A stretch of DNA of 64,000 nt from Acidisarcina polymorpha (GTDB taxonomy: Bacteria; Acidobacteriota; Terriglobia; Terriglobales; Acidobacteriaceae), in assembly GCF_003330725.1 (NCBI RefSeq), contig NZ_CP030840.1, positions 2,790,001 to 2,854,000 on the forward strand, in the 5' to 3' direction. Within the stretch, counting starts at the first letter, position 1, and each line of letters starts with the position of its first letter. The notes below the pieces were generated by a model that saw only the letters and a program-made list of their open reading frames with translations, ran no database searches and was not told where the DNA came from. Position numbers and translations under genes: made by a program. Shown one piece after another: positions 10,311 through 20,313 of the stretch.

Positions 10311-10472
10311 AGTCCCCCTAGAGTTGTCGGTCGAAATGAACCCGAGAGATATCCATTCTGTAACGGCGAGGCGCTAGCAGGTTATACACTCTTAGGTCCT
10401 GATTTGACGCGGCTTCTGCGGCGTTCCTATACTTCTCTACAATCCAACTGCCGGTCCGGGGGGAGAAATTTG

Positions 10473-11608
10473 ATGCTAAAGCGCTCGTTTCTACTCATTC
10501 TTTCGATGGTCACCGCCTCTACTTCCGGATATGCGCAAGAAGCATGGAAGGGTCATCAACCTACCCTGATCGCACAGCACAGCGGCACCACCCAGCTGCT
10601 GATTGCCGTCAGTCCGGTAAACTCCAAAGTCGTCTGGGCAGCCGGAGCTGGCGGAACGTACGTGGTTACGACCGATGGAGGTGCGACCTGGAAGTCCGGG
10701 GTCGTACCGGGGGCCGAAGGCCTGGAATTCCGCGACGTGCAAGGCGTGAGCGACCGGATCGCTTACCTGATGTCCATCGGGAACAATACTGGAGATTTTC
10801 GCATCTACAAGACGGAAGACGCTGGCTTGCATTGGACTATCCAGTTCAAGAATAAGAGGTCAATGCTTTCTATGACTGCTTTGCGTTCTGGACTCCGGAG
10901 CGTGGCATCACGCATAGCGATTCGGTGAACGGCGTCTTTCCCGACATTCGCACTACAAATGGCTCAACCTGGCACTCGATAGCCGGCAATATGCCACCCG
11001 CCTTAGCCGGCGAAGCTTCGTTCTCCTCGAGCGGAACCTGCATTGCTACACAGGGATGGCAAGACGCGTGGATTGCAACTGGGGGCTCAAGCATAGCCCG
11101 GATCCTGGCCACCCGGGATGGTGGCGACACCTGGAATGCGTATGACACTCCGCTCGTAAGCAATCCTAATGCGGGCGGTTTCTCGGTGGCGTTTCGAGAT
11201 CCCTGGCATGGAATCGTGGGCGGAGGCGATTTGACCGGCAACAGTGCCGCCCAGGCCGCGACTTCGGAGAACGGCGGGCAAACCTGGACGCTTACCACCA
11301 AGCCTCCTATTCCCGGCGCCATCTTCGGTCTTGCGTATGTGAGTGGCCTTGAACATGAGAATGATTGGGGCCATCGCGACAACTGGGATAATCATGGCCA
11401 CTCCGGCCATGAACACGACAGGAGCGTCGTGATTACGACCGAGACTCAGCCGAACTTCACCTCCGGCGAAGCCGCTTGGAGTCCCGATGAAGGACAAACC
11501 TGGTTCAAGCTGCCGGAGGTCAGCGGTTACTGGGCGGTCGCTTTTGCGAGTCCGAAAGCTGGATGGTTCGTCGGCAACAACGGCAAAATCCTTAAGATCA
11601 GCTTCTAA
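10473..11608 (+). CDS. Secreted BNR/WD40-YVTN-like beta-propeller protein, frameshifted
   Basis: ATG at 10473 follows GGGGAG. The first part (to about 10853) encodes a Sec signal peptide (MLKRSFLLILSMVTASTSGYAQ) and BNR-like blades with Asp-box-type motifs (TTDGGATWKSG, TEDAGLHWTIQF). The second part, from about 10856, continues in the +2-shifted frame as VNAFYDCFAFWTPERG and then blades TRDGGDTWN, SENGGQTWTL and SPDEGQTWFKL, ending GNNGKILKISF. Restoring one A in AATAAGAGG (10851-10859) joins them into one protein of about 378 residues, similar to the photosystem-assembly/BNR-repeat glycosidase-like proteins common in Acidobacteriota. A His-rich loop (HENDWGHRDNWDNHGHSGHEH) near residue 300 could bind metal. 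It is either a sequencing error or a recent null mutation. Confidence 0.75.
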
Positions 11609-11884: not shown

Positions 11885-13290
11885 CTAGATCACCTTGAGC
11901 TGTGCGAGCTTCTCGTAGAGCAACCGTCGATGGATGCCTAGCCGCCGGGCGGCATCGGACTTGTTGCCTCGGGATGCGTTCAACGCTTGCTCGACCAGAT
12001 GGCGCTCCCAACTTGCAACCGCTTCGTGGAACGGCTTTGCTTCTGCTGCCTGAACGTCGAATGCGCCGGGTGCGGCACTCATCTCTCTCGTTAACTCGTC
12101 CTGGATCAGCTCGGCTGTGATGGCCCTACCGCCAGCCTTAACGGCAGCCCGCTCGATCAGATGTTCCAATTCGCGGACATTACTGGAAAGGAGTAGCTTT
12201 GCAAGGCCACTATGGCATCGGCAGCAAGTCCAGCAGATGCGATTTGATTCCGCTGCCCGTAGCGGATGAGGAAGTATTCCGCTAACGGGAGTATGTCGGG
12301 TTGACGTTCGCGAAGCGGTGGGAGCCGGACACTGAAGGCGTTCAGGCGATAGAAGAGATCGGCTCGGAAGGTCTTTTGCTCTACGTCCTCTTCTAACGGA
12401 CGATTTGTTGCAGCAATAACTCTAACATCGGTACGGATGGAAGCAGTTCCGCCGACCCGCTCAAAGGCGTGTTCCTGCAAGACACGCAGGAGCTTGGGCT
12501 GAAGCGAGAGCGGCAGTTCTCCGATCTCATCCAAAAAGATCGTGCCTCCGTCTGCGGCTTCAAACTTCCCGCGTTTCTGCGAGACGGCTCCGGTGAAGGC
12601 GCCACGTTCGTGTCCGAAGAGTTCGGACTCCAGCAGTTCGGGAGGCAACGCTGCGCAGTTGAGGATGATGAAGGAGCGACGACTTCTCGCGCTATTTTGG
12701 TGGATCGCGCGGGCAACGACCTCTTTTCCGGTTCCCGATTCCCCCAGCAGCAAAACTCCGACGTCGGTAGCGGCAACCCTTCCGATGTTCTTGAAGACCT
12801 CAATCCATGCCGGCGAGTTGCCGATTAGCTGGGGTTTCAACGCTTCTTCGGAGGTGCTGACGTCTTCAAGAAGGCGATCTGTGAACCTCTGTTTTCTGAG
12901 TAGTTCGACCTCGCGCTGTAGCTCCATGTGCCGGATAGCGCGTGCTACCGTAGCAAGCGCCAGATCGATATCGAGGGGTTTTGTGATGAAGTCGTAAGCG
13001 CCCAGCTGCATGGCTTGCATCGCATTCGGCCCGGTGCCGTGAGCGGTGAGAATGATGACGGGCATAACGGTCAATAGCCCTTCTGACTGGAGGCTCTTGA
13101 GAAACTGTTCTCCTCCTCCGCCAGGCATCTTCCAATCGCAGAGCGTAAGTTCAGGAGTCGTGGTCTGAAGCAAGGTGATGGCTTCTTCTGCATTCGTTGC
13201 AGTAAGGGTCTGGTATCCCGCGTCCGAAAGCAGTTCCCGCAGGGTCTCCCGAAAGTTATGATCGTCGTCCACGATGAGCACTTCAGACAT
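11885..13290 (-). CDS. NtrC-family sigma-54-dependent response regulator, frameshifted
   Basis: Start MSEVLIVDDD at 13290 overlaps the kinase stop at 13283. Receiver domain: acidic pocket DDD at 8-10, phospho-Asp 52 (LCDWKMPG), Thr81, Lys103. AAA+ domain: Walker A GESGTGK at 182-188, the sigma-54-contacting GAFTGA loop, Walker B FLDEIGEL and arginine-rich sensor motifs. The frame breaks at about 12183 in the conserved YSFPGNVREL motif (read here as YSFPVMS); adding one G restores GNVRELEHLIERA and leads into a C-terminal Fis-type helix-turn-helix (NKSDAARRLGIHRRLLYEKL) ending at 11885. Restored length is about 469 residues. It should activate sigma-54 promoters on phosphorylation by the kinase encoded just upstream; the promoter at 15199 is the obvious target. 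Confidence 0.9.
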
Positions 13291-14941
13291 TTTGTCCTGC
13301 CTCTTCATCCGCCGGTCTTAGCGTATCGCGATCCACTCTATCTAATGGCAGCTTGAGGGAAGCGACGGCTCCTCCACCCTCCCGGTTTGCAAGAAGCAAC
13401 TCGCCCTCATGAGCCTGCATAATCTCAAACGAGATGGAAAGACCCAGTCCGGTTCCGGTTTCCTTGGTGGTGTAGAACGGGTCCAGCGCGTGACGCAGGG
13501 CTGCAGGCGTAAACCCACGCCCGTTGTCCGTGATGTCAATGCGAGCGAAGTCTGCATCAAATGTCGCGGTGATCGTTACGCTTCCACCTTGCGCGGCGAA
13601 ATGCGACGCTGAATAAACGGCATTCTCCATCAGGTTGTCGAGCACCTGGACCAGTCTGCCCCGGTCTGCGGGGACGACGCTGTGCGACGCCGCCTCGCAG
13701 ATAATCTCAACTCCTTTGGCGGTTTCTTTATCGGCCCATGTAGAGGCCGTGACTGCGCATAGATCATCCACCGCTACGGGCTGAAGTTGAAGCTCAATCG
13801 GTCTGGCGAAGTAGAGGAGACGGCTGATGATCGTATCGAGGCGATCGATTTCTTCGAGGATCACCGCGCTGCTCCGCCTGGCAGCCTCGGAATCGGCAGA
13901 GCGCTGCCACATCTGAGTTCTCATCCTGATCGTGCCTAGAGGATTTCGTAGCTCGTGGGCTATACCCGCAGCAAATTGGCCCAGCGCAGAGAGCCGTTCG
14001 TTGTGGCGGACCTGTGATTCCAATGTTCGCTCGTTTTCGATCTTTTCCTGCAAGGCGAGCGCCAGCGAGTCGATACCGTGGAGAACACGGTCGAATTCCT
14101 CGAGCGGTGGGCGGCCTTGCGTCGGCTGACTCGCGGCAGGCAAACCGCCTTCCATCGAACCCAAGCGTTGGAGAACGATATTGACTCCGCTGCGAATCTC
14201 CGTCGTAACGAACACCGCGAGCAACGCGGTCATCAGTGCCGCGATGCCGAACCCGACACTGCCAAACAAGAGTTCGCGATTCTGTCCGCCTTCAATTCCG
14301 GGGAGACGCTCCATCAGCCAGGCAGCTCCGGTGACTTCGTCTGTAGTCCCGGCTAGATGAATCCCACTGGACGATTCATGAATTGGCACCGCTACGAAGA
14401 GGATGGCGTCATGCGGTCCCTCAAAGCGAAATGTCTTAATAGCATTCGCCGCAACCGCTTCACGCGCAAGGTTCTCGATCGTGGGACGCTCTCGCTCGGG
14501 CATGCCTTTCTCAGCCCCTGGTCCCTCGTGGGTTGGGAAGGCGTAGCCGATCAACGCATCAGCTCTGGCAGCGTAGAAGGCACCCTCGACACCGTCCTCG
14601 TGCTGCAAGGTTTCCGTCGTGAGATCTTTGAGCGGATCAGGTTTCGGGGGCGGTGGCGCGTTTTGGTCAGGGCTTCGTGGCACAGCAGGAGGCGGAGGCG
14701 GCTGTGGTGGACGCGGCTTGATCGCCCGCAGAGAACTATCTGCCGTCCTATGATCTGCGTAGTTCCGCGCGAGACTGACAGCGACGCTGACAAGATGATG
14801 CTCGGTCAGTGCGAGCGTTTCCGCATGGCGATTGCGAAGAAACGTAAACAGGCTGATGGCAGCGGCTGCGAGGAACAGGAGCGTCAAAATCACGAGTAAC
14901 AGAATGCGGGAGCGAAGGCTTCTCCAAAAGATCTTCGCCAT
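13283..14941 (-). CDS. Membrane sensor histidine kinase (ZraS/NtrB-like) of the sigma-54 system
   Basis: Start at 14941 (MAKIFWRSLR) has GGAG eight bases upstream; the frame is open further but without signals. Of 552 residues, helix 1 is about 14-36 and helix 2 about 215-240. Between them lies a periplasmic domain that contains a striking proline tract (PRPPQPPPPPAVPRSP and PPPPKPDP, about 80-110). A linker leads to HisKA with the H-box GIAHELRNPLGTI (His near 329) and HATPase_c with NLMENAVYSA, DNGRGF and GTGLGLSI. The H-box type and the NtrC partner are those of NtrB/ZraS/AtoS kinases. Gene order kinase then regulator, with an 8-bp overlap, indicates translational coupling. Confidence 0.92.
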   Translation of the reverse strand: MAKIFWRSLRSRILLLVILTLLFLAAAAISLFTFLRNRHAETLALTEHHLVSVAVSLARNYADHRTADSSLRAIKPRPPQPPPPPAVPRSPDQNAPPPPKPDPLKDLTTETLQHEDGVEGAFYAARADALIGYAFPTHEGPGAEKGMPERERPTIENLAREAVAANAIKTFRFEGPHDAILFVAVPIHESSSGIHLAGTTDEVTGAAWLMERLPGIEGGQNRELLFGSVGFGIAALMTALLAVFVTTEIRSGVNIVLQRLGSMEGGLPAASQPTQGRPPLEEFDRVLHGIDSLALALQEKIENERTLESQVRHNERLSALGQFAAGIAHELRNPLGTIRMRTQMWQRSADSEAARRSSAVILEEIDRLDTIISRLLYFARPIELQLQPVAVDDLCAVTASTWADKETAKGVEIICEAASHSVVPADRGRLVQVLDNLMENAVYSASHFAAQGGSVTITATFDADFARIDITDNGRGFTPAALRHALDPFYTTKETGTGLGLSISFEIMQAHEGELLLANREGGGAVASLKLPLDRVDRDTLRPADEEAGQNV

Positions 14942-15087
14942 TCGTCTCCTTTCCAGTATTCCTCTCGCATAGCTTCTATCGAGACGTACCACTATGGTAT
15001 GCAACTTGGCTGCCATCGGTAATGGTGCTCCTATTGGCGACGCCATGAAGATCAGCTGCCAAGAGACCTTAGCTACTGAACACGACT

Positions 15088-15104
15088 TGTGCGCAATCCG
15101 CACA
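15088..15104. promoter_or_regulatory. Candidate upstream activator site for the NtrC-type regulator
   Basis: A perfect inverted repeat TGTGCG-N5-CGCACA (17 bp in total, the usual spacing of NtrC-class enhancer sites) centred about 116 bp upstream of the -12 element of the sigma-54 promoter at 15199. It lies in the divergent spacer between the kinase and the secreted protein. Assignment to this regulator is inferred from position and symmetry. Confidence 0.6.
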
Positions 15105-15198
15105 GCATGCGAGCGAATTACGGCCGGTCCGAGTGCTTCCAGAAGTCTCCGACCCACCAGACACCGGGTGATCGCAGGACTTTGAGGGTCTTGAGGAA

Positions 15199-15214
15199 TG
15201 GCACGCCGCTTGCC
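15199..15214 (+). promoter_or_regulatory. Sigma-54 (RpoN) promoter
   Basis: TGGCACGCCGCTTGCC matches the -24/-12 consensus (TGGCACG-N4-TTGCW) almost perfectly, with GG and GC exactly ten bases apart (GG 15200-15201, GC 15212-15213). The expected transcription start is near 15225, about 15 bases before the ATG at 15240 of the secreted Pro-rich protein. Confidence 0.88.
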
Positions 15215-15239
15215 CTATTGACTGGCAGAGGTGTTGCTC

Positions 15240-15845
15240 ATGTACATTCCATCTTCCCTAAGGATTGCGGTTCTTGGACTGATATTTAGCTCTGCGGCTT
15301 TTGCGCAAAGTCCGGTTGCCGCATCCCCAGCCCCTCCCACTGTTCCGCCGGCTGCTGCGCCTGCGCCTCCTCCGCAACAAGTTCCTATGGTGACCCAATC
15401 CTCTCGCGTCCGTGCTTTCAACGCAGGTCCGCGGGGAGAGGCACGCAGCTTGTACCTCCAGAACGGCAGCGTTGTTAATCTGGCGCCGGGACTGGGAGGG
15501 CAAATCGGCCCCACAGTCCGAAAGGGAGAAAAGATAACCGTGACCGGCACGAAGTCAGAGATCAATGGACAGTCTCTAGTCGAGGCGGCCAGCGTCCGGT
15601 TGAACGATCAAACCTTTTCGGCGAATGATCCCGCGCCGGGGCCCCTGGCTGAAGGCGTGGAGCCACCCCCGCCGGGAGCATCGCAGGCGCCTCCCGCACC
15701 CGCACCAGGAAGCAGAAACAGGGCCGCTGTACCGGCACCTTGTGGCGCAGCAGTCAACGCACCGTCGCCTCCGCGCAATTTCGGTGGGCCTCCTCCGCCA
15801 CCTCCTGACGGAATGGCCCCGCCCCCAGCGCCTCCCCAGAACTGA
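15240..15845 (+). CDS. Secreted proline-rich protein under sigma-54 control
   Basis: ATG at 15240 (AGAGG about eight bases upstream) is preferred over the GTG at 15231. The 201-residue product has a Sec signal (IPSSLRIAVLGLIFSSAAFAQ), then a Pro/Ala tract (about 24-48), a compact beta-rich core of about 80 residues (SRVRAFNAGPRGEARSLYL, KGEKITVTGTKSEINGQSL) that looks like a small OB-like or barrel fold, and a long Pro-rich tail (GPPPPPPDGMAPPPAPPQN). It should be periplasmic or outer-surface. The sigma-54 promoter, the divergent NtrC/kinase pair and the shared proline tracts in kinase and target argue for a dedicated envelope-stress-like circuit, comparable in layout to ZraPSR, though this protein is not ZraP. 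Confidence 0.75.
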   Translation: MYIPSSLRIAVLGLIFSSAAFAQSPVAASPAPPTVPPAAAPAPPPQQVPMVTQSSRVRAFNAGPRGEARSLYLQNGSVVNLAPGLGGQIGPTVRKGEKITVTGTKSEINGQSLVEAASVRLNDQTFSANDPAPGPLAEGVEPPPPGASQAPPAPAPGSRNRAAVPAPCGAAVNAPSPPRNFGGPPPPPPDGMAPPPAPPQN

Positions 15846-15998: not shown

Positions 15999-16583
15999 AT
16001 GCCACCTCCGAAGAAGGCAGCAGCAAAGAAGGCCGGCAAAAAAACTCCTGGGCATCACCACGAAAAGCATGGCCCGGCGAGCGACCTGCGACGCGCCTAT
16101 GAGCACATGGGGAGGATCGCGGTTCTCCGGCAATCCTTAAAGTCGTCTGTGACGGATGCAGTTGTCGAACTTACTACGTTGGCCCAGCGATCTATCAAAG
16201 ACGGACACAGCAAAGACGCTGCCGATCTTCTCCGGGCATTGGAGCATCTTAGCTTCGCAGTCCTCGCCGGCGGGGTCTCTGGTGCCGTCCGCGTCTCTGC
16301 CGAACTCAAAGCGTCCATCACGGAGCAGTTCGATGAACTGACGAGAAGGGCAGATGAGCACTGGAAGGAAGAAGAGGAGCACTCCAACCCACTGACCGCG
16401 ATCTATGAAAGCTCTCGCAACAGCGCCGCCAGTGCGTTCAAGGCTCGCGTCTATCACCAGGCCCTTGAGTTTGCACGCGCTGCGGAAGCTCTCGCTCATG
16501 TGAAGCAACGTGGTGCTCTCAAGCTTGGAAGAGGCCACAAGAACCTGCAACTCAAAAGCGCTGTAGTTCCTGGAAAGTTGTAA
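15999..16583 (+). CDS. Lys-rich-tailed hypothetical protein
   Basis: ATG at 15999 (MPPPKKAAAKKAGKK) follows AAAGGA. The frame is open upstream to 15864 but that part looks non-coding. The 194-residue product starts with a basic histone-H1-like tail, followed by a His cluster (GHHHEKHG) and an all-helical body of about 165 residues with no membrane segment. I do not recognise the family. It is the first gene of a tight run of five, ending 3 bp before the MFS gene, so it is probably co-transcribed with the transporters. The basic tail suggests nucleic-acid or polyphosphate binding, which is a guess. Confidence 0.6.
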   Translation: MPPPKKAAAKKAGKKTPGHHHEKHGPASDLRRAYEHMGRIAVLRQSLKSSVTDAVVELTTLAQRSIKDGHSKDAADLLRALEHLSFAVLAGGVSGAVRVSAELKASITEQFDELTRRADEHWKEEEEHSNPLTAIYESSRNSAASAFKARVYHQALEFARAAEALAHVKQRGALKLGRGHKNLQLKSAVVPGKL

Positions 16584-16586
16584 CGA

Positions 16587-17870
16587 ATGGCCAGTGTGAC
16601 GGAGATCGATCCCGGCAAGAAACGAAGTATTCACGCCCTGGAGGCGACGAACTTCTTCCTCGCCGACGTGCAAACCGGCCTCGGCCCGTTTCTCGCTGCC
16701 TATCTTGCGGGGGCCGGTTGGGAGCCGGGTAGGGTCGGAATGGCATTGACCATCGGCGGCATCATCACTGTGGTTCTGCAAGCTCCGGCTGGCGCCATTG
16801 TCGATCAACTCAGGGCAAAGAGACTGATTCTCGTCCTGGCTTCAGCCGTTCTCGCTGTAGGAGCGATCTTACTGAGTATCACGGCTGCACCATGGGCCGT
16901 GTATACGTCCCAGGTCCTCATCGGAGGTGCGGGGCCATTCCTCGGACCGACACTTGCTGCGGTCACCATGGGAATCGTCGGCGTAAAGTTCTTTGATCGT
17001 CAATTTGGGAAGAACCAGTCTTTCAACTCGGCCGGCAACGTGGCGTGTGCGCTTGTGATTGCAGGCATGAGTCATTTTTTCGGAAATCGAGCCATCTTTA
17101 TCACGGCTGCGGTGCTGACAATCCCGACCGTGATGACGATCCGAGCGATTCAGAGCAAGGACATCGACTACGATCTTGCCCGGGGCGGGGCGATCCAAGT
17201 GGACGGTAAAGAAGTCGCTGCGAGAACTCCGGTGCTGAAGACTCTCCTTGGAGACCGGACTCTCCTGGTCTTTCTCGTGTGCGCTTTCCTCTTCCACTTC
17301 GCGAACGCGGCCATGCTGCCGCAACTCGGCGAGATGCTTTCGCACGGCGCGCGAGCGAGTGCCGCTCCGTTTATGTCGGCCTGCATCATCGTGACGCAGG
17401 TGGTCATCATGTGCTTCGCCCCGGCTATTGGACGGTTCGCGAACCGGCATGGGCGTAAACCGCTGCTGATGGTAGGCTTTGGAGTTCTTCCAATGCGCGC
17501 ACTTCTTTACACCTTGACCCACAACGCGGGAAGCCTGATCGCGATCCAGGTCCTCGACGGCGTGGCGAATGCAATCTTTGTCGTTGTTTCCATCCTCGTA
17601 GTTGCAGACAGAACGCGCGGCACGGGACGGTTCAATCTTGCGCAAGGCAGCCTCGCAACTGCAGTAGGGATCGGCGCCGCACTCAGCAATACGTTCGGTG
17701 GAGAGTTGGTCCAGCATTTCAGCTATCGCATCTCCTTCTTATCCCTGGGGGCAATTGCTGCGCTGGCGTTTGTTCTCTTATGGACAGCTGTTGGCGAAAC
17801 CCTTCCGGACAGGAACGAACCAAACAAAAATGTTTCTACCCCAATTGCTCCCCAGGAGCTTCCAGCATGA
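16587..17870 (+). CDS. MFS transporter
   Basis: The 427-residue protein has about twelve hydrophobic helices and MFS loop signatures: GRVGMALTIGGII then VDQLRAKR between helices 2 and 3, and FANRHGRKPLL between helices 8 and 9. It is an inner-membrane secondary transporter of the MFS_1 type; substrate is not readable from sequence. It starts 3 bp after the preceding gene, and its stop overlaps the next start as ATGA (17867-17870), so it is translationally coupled to the phosphoesterase. That coupling suggests that the substrate and the phosphoester chemistry are related. Confidence 0.9.
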   Translation: MASVTEIDPGKKRSIHALEATNFFLADVQTGLGPFLAAYLAGAGWEPGRVGMALTIGGIITVVLQAPAGAIVDQLRAKRLILVLASAVLAVGAILLSITAAPWAVYTSQVLIGGAGPFLGPTLAAVTMGIVGVKFFDRQFGKNQSFNSAGNVACALVIAGMSHFFGNRAIFITAAVLTIPTVMTIRAIQSKDIDYDLARGGAIQVDGKEVAARTPVLKTLLGDRTLLVFLVCAFLFHFANAAMLPQLGEMLSHGARASAAPFMSACIIVTQVVIMCFAPAIGRFANRHGRKPLLMVGFGVLPMRALLYTLTHNAGSLIAIQVLDGVANAIFVVVSILVVADRTRGTGRFNLAQGSLATAVGIGAALSNTFGGELVQHFSYRISFLSLGAIAALAFVLLWTAVGETLPDRNEPNKNVSTPIAPQELPA

Positions 17871-19009
17871 GTGCTCTCGCGTTGAAACGTCCATTCCGAC
17901 CCCAATCACCCGATGCAGCTGGTGTGATTAGCTGGATTCACTTTGGCGATCTCCACATGATCAAGGCCGGAGAGCAGAACCACCTCGACCTGGCGGAAAT
18001 TGTGAATGAAGTCAATCACGCATTCGCTGATTCTGTAAGCTTCGTCTTCCTTCCGGGGGACGTAGCCGACGACGGTAGCCGCTCTGCCTATGCCGTGGTG
18101 CGCAGCGAGCTCGACCGCCTGAATGTCCCGTGGTGCGCCATCATTGGCGATCACGACGTTCATGAGAAAAGTTTTTCAAACTTTCTCGAGGCGATGTCGG
18201 AACAAACCCACTTTGCCTTCACAGTAGGAGACACGCGATTCCTCGCCATGAACGCCTTCGACGTGCCTGAGCCTCCTTCCTTCACCGTGTCCGAAGAGCA
18301 GGTGCTGTGGGCAGAGGAGGAATTGCGAGAAGCAACGAGTAGCGGCCAGAAAAAAGTTGTTTTCTTGCACTGTTATCCAAGCGACCTGAAGGTCGGCGGA
18401 GAAGAGGTAAGCCGTCTCGTCCGCGACTATGATGTTCGCCTAATCGATATGGGTCACACTCACTATAACGAGATCGCCAACGATGGCCGGACACTCTACT
18501 CCGCAACTCGATCCACAGGGCAGATTGAAGAAGGACCAGTCGGCTATTCAGTAACTAACATCGACTGCAACGTAGTGAGCTGGCGATTCATCGAACTGGG
18601 CGGGTTGCCCGTTGCCGTTATCACCTCCCCGAGCGATGAGCGGCTTCTGACAAAGTCCAACGAGATACTGAAAGAAACGTTGAAGGTTCGAGCAAAGTTC
18701 TGGGGATCGGTCGGGGCCGTGGAAGGGATCGCTCATCTGGACGGGCAAACGCTGCCGATGAAGCGAGTCAGCGACAGTCACGTTTGGGAGGCTCATGTTC
18801 TCAGTCCCGGTGAGGGCACACATTCTTTGAAGGTGTCTTTCAAAGATGCGGATGGAAATCTCGCGAGCGACGAGATTCGTGTCGCGGTTGAACAGCGCAC
18901 GGAACGGAAGTTTCAGGAACGCGATCAGGACAACGCACTGGAGGCATGGCCGGAACATGGGCTGCTCGGAACCCAACTCGGTCCGAACAAGAATGGGAAG
19001 AAATGGTGA
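17867..19009 (+). CDS. Calcineurin-like metallophosphoesterase with C-terminal beta domain
   Basis: ATG at 17867 overlaps the MFS stop. The 380-residue product carries the dinuclear metal-site motifs in order: GDLH (DxH), LPGDVADDG (GDxxD), IIGDHDVHE in the place of GNH(D/E), FLHCYPSD, and DMGHTHYNE (GHxH). These cover about residues 20-210. The Asn of GNH is Asp here, a variation seen in some class III phosphodiesterase relatives. A beta-rich C-terminal domain (about 250-365, ending EIRVAVEQ) resembles an Ig-like cap. There is no signal peptide, so it acts in the cytoplasm. It lies between two permeases, suggesting hydrolysis of an imported or exported phosphoester. Confidence 0.88.
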   Translation: MSALALKRPFRPQSPDAAGVISWIHFGDLHMIKAGEQNHLDLAEIVNEVNHAFADSVSFVFLPGDVADDGSRSAYAVVRSELDRLNVPWCAIIGDHDVHEKSFSNFLEAMSEQTHFAFTVGDTRFLAMNAFDVPEPPSFTVSEEQVLWAEEELREATSSGQKKVVFLHCYPSDLKVGGEEVSRLVRDYDVRLIDMGHTHYNEIANDGRTLYSATRSTGQIEEGPVGYSVTNIDCNVVSWRFIELGGLPVAVITSPSDERLLTKSNEILKETLKVRAKFWGSVGAVEGIAHLDGQTLPMKRVSDSHVWEAHVLSPGEGTHSLKVSFKDADGNLASDEIRVAVEQRTERKFQERDQDNALEAWPEHGLLGTQLGPNKNGKKW

Positions 19010-20313
19010 TGATCCCGACAGAGATAGCACATGTTGTTCTGCCGTTGATTGTCGCCGTGAGCATCGCCCTGATGCTGATTCGCCCGCGCGGCATTCCCGA
19101 AGTCTGGTGGATCTCTGGCGGCGCGTTGCTTTTGGTCGCACTGCGGCTCGTGCCACTCAAGCTTGCCGGCCAGGCGGTCGCTAGGGGCAGCGACGTTTAC
19201 TTGTTCCTCATCGGCATGATGCTGCTGAGCGAGCTGGCGCGGGAGCAGGGCGTCTTCGATTGGGTGGCTTCCGTAGCGGTCCGCGGAGCCAGGGGCAGTT
19301 GCTCGCGTCTCTTCCTGTTGGTTTATGGGGTGGGGACGCTGGTGACTATCTTCATGTCAAACGATGCGACAGCTGTTGTGTTGACTCCCGCGATTCTAAC
19401 GGCGGTACGTAAAGCAAAGGTCTCGCCGCTTCCATACCTATTCGTCTGCGCGTTCATTGCAAACGCCGCGAGCTTTGTGCTCCCGATCTCAAACCCGGCG
19501 AATCTAGTCGTCTTTCACACCGATATGCCTCCCCTGGGCACATGGCTCACAGACTTCGGCATCCCATCGCTGTTTTCGATTGTCGTGACGTTTTTCGTAA
19601 TGCGTTTTCTATTTCGAGAGGACCTCGGCAAAAGCATCGACTGCGAGGTTGAAGATACCAGGCTAAGCGGCAACGGAAAGCTGGTCCTCGGAGGTCTTGC
19701 GCTGATGATTGCGGTGCTGCTGACTGCCTCCGCACTGAAGAAGGACCTCGGCCTGCCGACGTGCCTTGCGGCGCTTGTGATTACGGCGATTGTCTCTATT
19801 AAGGCAAGGAGCAATCCCACCAAACTTGCAGGCGAGATTAGTTGGGCGACGTTGCTGCTCGTCGCGGGCCTGTTTGTTATGGTCGATGCGGTCGAGAGTC
19901 AAGGAGCTTTGAACCTGACACAACAGTGGCTCGCCTGGGCCTCGCATTTGGGCCAGAGTGCCGGTGCGCTGGTTGTTGGGTTCGTCGTGGGTGTAGCGAA
20001 CAACATCGTGAACAACCTTCCTCTGGGATTGATCGCGGGCGGCACGCTCCAAGCCGCTCACAGTAAGGGACTGATTGCCAATGCCGTTCTGATTGGCGTG
20101 GACCTCGGGCCCAATCTCTCGGTCACCGGCTCGCTGGCTACGATTCTATGGTTGCTTGCGCTTCGCAAGGACTCGGACGGAGACGCAGGCGGGGAGAAGC
20201 TCGATGTCAGCTTCTGGAAGTTTTTGAAAGTGGGTGCCGTCGCCATGCCTGTGGCGCTGATCGCGGCGCTGGGCGGAGCGATCCTGATGAACATATTGGC
20301 CGGACAACACTAA
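19009..20313 (+). CDS. ArsB/SLC13-like anion permease
   Basis: Start at 19009 (MIPTEIAHVV) gives GGGAAG about eight bases upstream and a TGATG overlap with the preceding stop; an ATG at 19003 is also possible. The 434-residue product has about 11-12 helices and the hallmarks of the ArsB/NhaD superfamily: IFMSNDATAVVLTPAIL and ISNPANLVVF in the first half, NNIVNNLPLGLI and VDLGPNLSVTGSLATIL in the second. The known ArsB role is arsenite export, with or without ArsA. No arsR, arsC or arsA gene is nearby, so another oxyanion or organic anion is also possible. Confidence 0.87.
   Translation: MIPTEIAHVVLPLIVAVSIALMLIRPRGIPEVWWISGGALLLVALRLVPLKLAGQAVARGSDVYLFLIGMMLLSELAREQGVFDWVASVAVRGARGSCSRLFLLVYGVGTLVTIFMSNDATAVVLTPAILTAVRKAKVSPLPYLFVCAFIANAASFVLPISNPANLVVFHTDMPPLGTWLTDFGIPSLFSIVVTFFVMRFLFREDLGKSIDCEVEDTRLSGNGKLVLGGLALMIAVLLTASALKKDLGLPTCLAALVITAIVSIKARSNPTKLAGEISWATLLLVAGLFVMVDAVESQGALNLTQQWLAWASHLGQSAGALVVGFVVGVANNIVNNLPLGLIAGGTLQAAHSKGLIANAVLIGVDLGPNLSVTGSLATILWLLALRKDSDGDAGGEKLDVSFWKFLKVGAVAMPVALIAALGGAILMNILAGQH

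Follow-up and report, generated by a model that had tools for sequence, protein, structure and literature searches.

The closest described counterpart of the locus considered here is zraP/zraSR of E. coli and Salmonella, which has sigma-54 promoters in both directions (PMC4987338). A second comparison is offered by AioX-AioSR, in which AioX, a periplasmic arsenite sensor, acts with a two-component system in a metalloid context (PMC7565993). The locus lies in a stretch of Acidisarcina polymorpha DNA of 64,000 nucleotides, which as a whole is called the window below. It shares with ZraP-ZraSR an NtrC-type regulator and a membrane kinase in one operon, divergent from the gene for a secreted protein, with sigma-54 control in both directions, represented here by sequence elements. 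An earlier note on this DNA had drawn this parallel, which is closer than was claimed because both transcripts have sigma-54 elements. The locus differs from ZraP-ZraSR in that its target is a proline-rich OB-fold protein and not the ZraP chaperone, in that the operon continues to transporters and a phosphoesterase, and in that the kinase and regulator fall far below the ZraS and ZraR equivalog cut-offs (kinase 166 bits against 479, regulator 288 bits against 760, the latter figure for a regulator truncated by a frameshift). With AioX-AioSR it has in common a two-component pair accompanied by a periplasmic accessory protein. That protein is, however, an OB fold, and neither an AioX-type protein nor arsenite oxidase (aio) genes were noted among the neighbours examined.

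The control region and the two-component genes

The regulatory genes and the control elements are arranged as follows.

11885-12169, minus strand: out-of-frame remainder of the regulator, with a Fis-type HTH_8 DNA-binding domain
12157-13308, minus strand: NtrC-type response regulator, receiver and AAA+ part, ended by a 1-nt deletion near 12180
13283-14941, minus strand: membrane histidine kinase, 552 aa, with a proline tract and a conserved GYAFPT-x2-GPG sensor region (domains, alignment)
15015-15000, minus strand: divergent sigma-54 element toward the kinase gene, TGGCAGCCAAGTTGCA (scan, alignment)
15088-15104, no strand: candidate operator (enhancer) site 1, perfect 17-bp dyad TGTGCGCAATCCGCACA (scan, conservation)
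15110-15126, no strand: candidate operator site 2, a weaker and reversely oriented copy that reads CGGCCGTAATTCGCTCG on the minus strand
15199-15214, plus strand: -24/-12 (sigma-54) element ahead of the effector operon, TGGCACGCCGCTTGCC (sequence, scan, conservation)

The -24/-12 element, the dyad, the regulator gene and the divergent kinase (14941-13283) had all been described in the earlier note and were all found, whereas its description of the circuit as complete and self-contained did not survive; the kinase promoter, the second operator, the operon and the break in the regulator had escaped it. TGGCACGCCGCTTGCC lies 41 bp ahead of the target ATG at 15240, which has AGAGG upstream of it, and agrees with 11/12 positions of the consensus (p=0.007 when stretches of equal length from the window serve as background). 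In all ten close loci this element is found at -40 to -44 of the ATG, its mean majority being 0.93, compared with 0.73 over the 72 bp that precede it. The dyad TGTGCGCAATCCGCACA, which lies 111 bp upstream of the -24 element, was equalled in none of 400 background draws. A sigma-54-like match at 15223 was rejected, as it is without conservation in relatives. Elsewhere in the window, an identical sigma-54-like stretch, TGGCAAGAGAGTTGCACGATAC, occurs twice (852 and 9640), possibly in paralogous genes.

The element directed toward the kinase keeps its GG-N10-GC intact in 9/9 aligned loci and in locus L128, and is also present in the remote loci L035 and L036. Operator 2 lies 22 bp from operator 1 in the window, and a spacing of 22-23 bp is found as well in L026, L031, L032, L034, L035 and L036. 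With this second sigma-54 element and second operator, the region resembles that of ZraP/ZraSR in being bidirectional and self-activating. The -24/-12 element at 15199-15214 and the dyad are the two intergenic stretches most conserved among relatives, and the element toward the kinase also ranks among the best conserved. In eight representative loci the mean majority of both sigma-54 elements and operator 1 is 0.89-0.94, operator 1 being the region's most conserved 16-bp stretch, and that of operator 2 is 0.86, compared with 0.72-0.73 for the two 72-bp spacers between the elements.

The distances are also preserved. Operators 1 and 2 lie 111 and 89 bp from the -24 element in the window, in L031 and in L032, and in the last of these the target is only ~46% identical to that of the window, yet the distances are unchanged; the ~111-bp distance of operator 1 thus extends to relatives down to this level of target identity. 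The distances are 112 and 90 in L034, counted from the TGGCGAGAAGGTTGCC element (6657) after the scan had picked a neighbouring match, and ~124/101 in L035 and L036. In single remote loci the sigma-54 scores are individually weak (p=0.17 in L032, p=0.11 and 0.37 in L033). The genome encodes rpoN (sigma-54) and about ten full-strength sigma-54 activator domains. TGGCAYG-N4-TTGC occurs in it 12 times, against 4 for the reversed control, so that the element alone is suggestive and not proof. The operator core CGCAATYCGCNCA, searched in seven genomes, gave 3-13 matches per genome, above the reversed control; these single operator-like matches elsewhere mean that the core motif by itself is not specific. 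We consider it probable that 14942-15239 is a bidirectional sigma-54 control region active as a pair of promoters, a grade that applies jointly to the whole explanation developed below.

The circuit is not complete in this assembly because a 1-nt deletion splits the regulator into two open reading frames (13308-12157 and 12169-11885). The deletion site reads TTTCC-AGTAATGTC, where 7/7 aligned relatives have one extra base, and the frame stops after FP at a point at which relatives read FPGNVRELEH, which leaves the regulator ORF without HTH_8 in its own frame. In the relatives compared (e.g. L024-L029, L033 and L036) the regulator is intact, with one frame of 465-479 aa that carries the receiver, Sigma54_activat and Fis-type HTH domains in a single protein; in the window these domains are split across frames. 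Either the switch is broken in this strain or a base call is wrong. The first alternative, that in the window's organism the circuit is a decaying relic with a regulator pseudogene and silent promoters, would account for a deletion that sets the gene apart from every relative compared and puts its DNA-binding domain out of frame. The other genes of the block are nonetheless open, and the promoters and operators are intact. Moreover, a neighbouring BNR/YCF48-like protein (10404-11608) also appears frameshifted (10404-10928 / 10925-11608), which makes a base-call error in the assembly possible, and we regard decay as plausible but somewhat the less probable account of the deletion.

The secreted protein and the proline tracts

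The divergent genes are listed here in order from the control region.

15240-15845, plus strand: target, 201 aa; its N-terminus resembles a signal peptide, and a single OB-fold domain (~residues 48-128) is flanked by proline-rich segments on its N- and C-terminal sides
15999-16583, plus strand: conserved 194-aa protein with a Lys/His-rich N-terminus (domain search, neighbour comparison)
16587-17870, plus strand: MFS transporter (PF07690, 8e-36; conserved neighbour)
17780-19009, plus strand: calcineurin-like metallophosphoesterase (PF00149, 9e-13; conserved neighbour), true start probably downstream of 17780
18946-20313, plus strand: ArsB/CitMHS-type transporter (PF03600, 2e-39; PF02040, 1.5e-30), true start probably downstream of 18946

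The target matched no Pfam or NCBIfam family, and a sequence search of the PDB with it gave nothing significant. Its core is predicted to be an OB fold (pLDDT 82-94 over the block, ~90 in the core). The matches listed in a fold search with this model were all OB-fold proteins, with DALI-scale Z values of ~10 to folds of the single-stranded-DNA-binding type, a similarity that says nothing on function. The modelled core is thus not of the ZraP/CpxP helical chaperone kind, in agreement with the earlier statement that the target is no relative of ZraP. A plasmid homologue of the target partially matches DUF5666 (PF18914) with 22.5 bits, below the gathering cut-off of 27; the window target itself gave no match. 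Of 300 sampled genomes of the family, 19 gave an OB-core match at E<=0.01; the poorest of these matches are to other OB-type proteins. The remote OB proteins of L037-L041 (E ~0.001-0.01) were set aside as such, as no kinase/regulator pair of this kind adjoins them; beside that of L041 there are two receiver-domain matches only. In L028 an early stop removes the proline-rich tail of the OB protein (L028:6713-7249), which its near-identical counterpart in L029 retains.

It had been proposed that the target, through its proline tracts, binds the proline-rich periplasmic domain of the kinase and feeds back on it. In its fullest form, this reading makes the secreted protein chiefly a negative regulator of the ZraP/CpxP kind, with the transporters secondary. 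It agrees with the position of the gene, which is first in the operon and adjoins the control region in most loci, and with the parallel system, where ZraP is described as repressing ZraSR (PMC10848872; the title of Appia-Ayme 2012, as cited in PMC7657598). The distribution of the tracts speaks otherwise. Only some of the Acidobacteriaceae loci have the long kinase tract. It is missing from the kinases of L032 and L034 and from those of plasmid loci including L139, L151, L152 and L153, whose OB proteins nevertheless have a proline-rich segment. Conversely, L128 is without the OB protein, yet it has kept a tract-bearing kinase, both promoters and the transporters, and in L033 the OB gene does not stand beside the control region. 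Nor is mutual binding of two polyproline tracts known. Pairing of tracts therefore cannot be the general mechanism, and we rejected it as the core one since tract and target dissociate among loci; feedback by the secreted protein as its chief role seems to us quite improbable. An AlphaFold model of the kinase sensor was set aside (pLDDT 38).

The operon and its relatives

From the gene order, the target is the first gene of a predicted operon that comprises the OB protein, the 194-aa protein, the MFS transporter, the metallophosphoesterase and the ArsB/CitMHS-type transporter. The description of the circuit as self-contained was therefore an understatement, since at least four further genes follow downstream in conserved order and the kinase has a sigma-54 element of its own. 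The control region, kinase, regulator and transporters recur, partly reordered, in 14 other Acidobacteriaceae loci, and in this family the sigma-54 element, the dyad and the two-component genes co-occur with target homologues, as a check suggested in the earlier note had asked. The order regulator-kinase, then divergently OB protein, 194-aa protein, MFS, metallophosphoesterase and ArsB-type transporter, is complete in L024-L029 and L031; in L028 the metallophosphoesterase start overlaps the MFS stop. In L030 the 194-aa gene alone was not found and the rest of the block is kept. More distant loci of the Acidobacteriaceae retain most of the block with the order changed: the MFS gene is on the kinase side in L032 and L034, whereas L033 has the 194-aa gene in the divergent position and the OB gene on the far side of the regulator. 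A deletion in L128 has removed the OB gene and most of the 194-aa gene, but both promoters, both operators, the two-component genes and the three downstream genes remain, a pattern that suggests that the transporters belong to the regulated output.

Several remote loci deserve mention. L033, a remote relative, contains tandem lipoprotein-like genes with proline-rich segments (L033:6683-8054), one with an OB domain and the other seemingly related, in the vicinity of genes for RND efflux and a Na/Ca exchanger. In a different family of the phylum, the gene for a two-OB-type protein lies upstream of a kinase and regulator on the same strand (L129:5278-7916), and an RND efflux (ACR_tran) gene is located at another point of that stretch. 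The kinases of L130-L137, also from another family of the phylum, have the sensor region weakly in common; in the stretches fetched around them, tblastn found no counterpart of the target, the MFS transporter, the phosphoesterase or the ArsB-type transporter.

A search with the kinase sensor region led to Burkholderiaceae plasmids, on which a kinase and sigma-54 regulator precede a proline-rich OB lipoprotein, another OB-type protein, a metallophosphoesterase, an MFS transporter, an "arsenic transporter" and a DMT transporter. A search with the OB protein led to plasmids of Burkholderia, Bradyrhizobium, Methylocystis, Acidiphilium, Methylocapsa and Spirosoma, and comparison of profiles showed the acidobacterial and plasmid OB sets to be homologous (E=6e-16). 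Plasmids of Paraburkholderia, Caballeronia, Burkholderia, Bradyrhizobium and Methylocystis carry homologous kinases and sigma-54 regulators together with OB proteins and transporters of the MFS or ArsB/anion type, and some of these sets include the metallophosphoesterase. The earlier note would have been contradicted by homologues consistently found apart from the promoter or regulator. The linkage held, with a sigma-54 element scoring 10-11 located 47-148 bp ahead of the OB gene in 7/7 of the plasmid loci examined in which the two-component genes are linked. In the three OB loci without adjoining two-component genes, there was no such element in L155 and L157 and a weak one in L156. L155, on a Spirosoma plasmid (Bacteroidota), carries an OB protein, DMT transporter, metallophosphoesterase and "arsenic transporter" (L155:3524-7537), with two-component genes and sigma-54 element absent beside them. 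On plasmids the two-component genes and the OB operon mostly stand in tandem instead of diverging, which marks the bidirectional layout as a trait of the acidobacterial form. Judging by these sequences, the gene set appears in several bacterial phyla, often on plasmids.

The last gene of the operon raises the question of the substrate. Both Pfam models and a solved arsenical pump membrane protein, its best solved relative (10tp_A, E=5.8e-24), align over most of its length. If the cassette were a metalloid efflux module of the arsenite/antimonite type, in which an ArsB-type pump, the MFS transporter and the phosphoesterase are induced by metalloid through the two-component system, its function would be closer to arsenite sensing of the AioXSR type than to a response to envelope stress, and both the solved relative and the "arsenic transporter" annotation of plasmid homologues would fit, as would the precedent of AioX noted above. 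However, the Pfam score for CitMHS exceeds that for ArsB, the Bradyrhizobium homologue is far nearer to CitMHS, and the window protein, at 156.7 bits, is far below the NCBIfam ArsB cut-off of 457, so that homology does not fix the substrate. The gene also lies in a sigma-54 two-component cassette and not in an ars operon, with no arsC, arsR or aio gene seen among its neighbours. A module specific for metalloids is in our judgement unlikely.

A proposed switch and its meaning

What the sequence shows, namely the promoter elements and operator-like sites, the order and domain content of the genes and their conservation, is consistent with the following scheme. The membrane kinase, whose input is most likely an envelope or toxicant signal, would phosphorylate the NtrC-type regulator. 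The regulator would bind at 15088-15104 and 15110-15126, the two operators spaced by 22 bp, and activate sigma-54 polymerase at two promoters. The promoter toward the kinase would drive kinase and regulator and so provide self-amplification, while the other would drive the operon of OB protein, 194-aa protein, MFS transporter, metallophosphoesterase and ArsB/CitMHS-type transporter. The transporters would export the offending compound, and the OB-fold protein may serve as an accessory envelope protein on flexible proline linkers. That a bidirectional sigma-54 switch with a self-amplifying two-component system controls the OB protein and the transporter operon is, we think, likely. The transporter set suggests export of a toxic compound, and the locus is most likely an envelope- or toxicant-responsive efflux cassette of an undescribed family, regulated like ZraPSR. 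More tentatively, it may be a horizontally spread cassette, previously undescribed, in which a two-component system with its own family of sensor domain acts through sigma-54 promoters on an envelope OB accessory that hands a toxic compound to, or gates, exporters (MFS, metallophosphoesterase, ArsB-type). A literature search, mostly outside subscription journals, found no published description of it.

The genes of this cassette are now annotated as "hypothetical" or by broad family only. A gene set of Acidobacteriota and of Beta- and Alphaproteobacterial plasmids gains a defined switch, with two promoters, two operators and one regulator, and because the operator/promoter pair is conserved, reporter screens can test directly for the trigger. 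Knowledge of the trigger would give a substrate and a stress to transporter-type genes and to an unclassified envelope protein.
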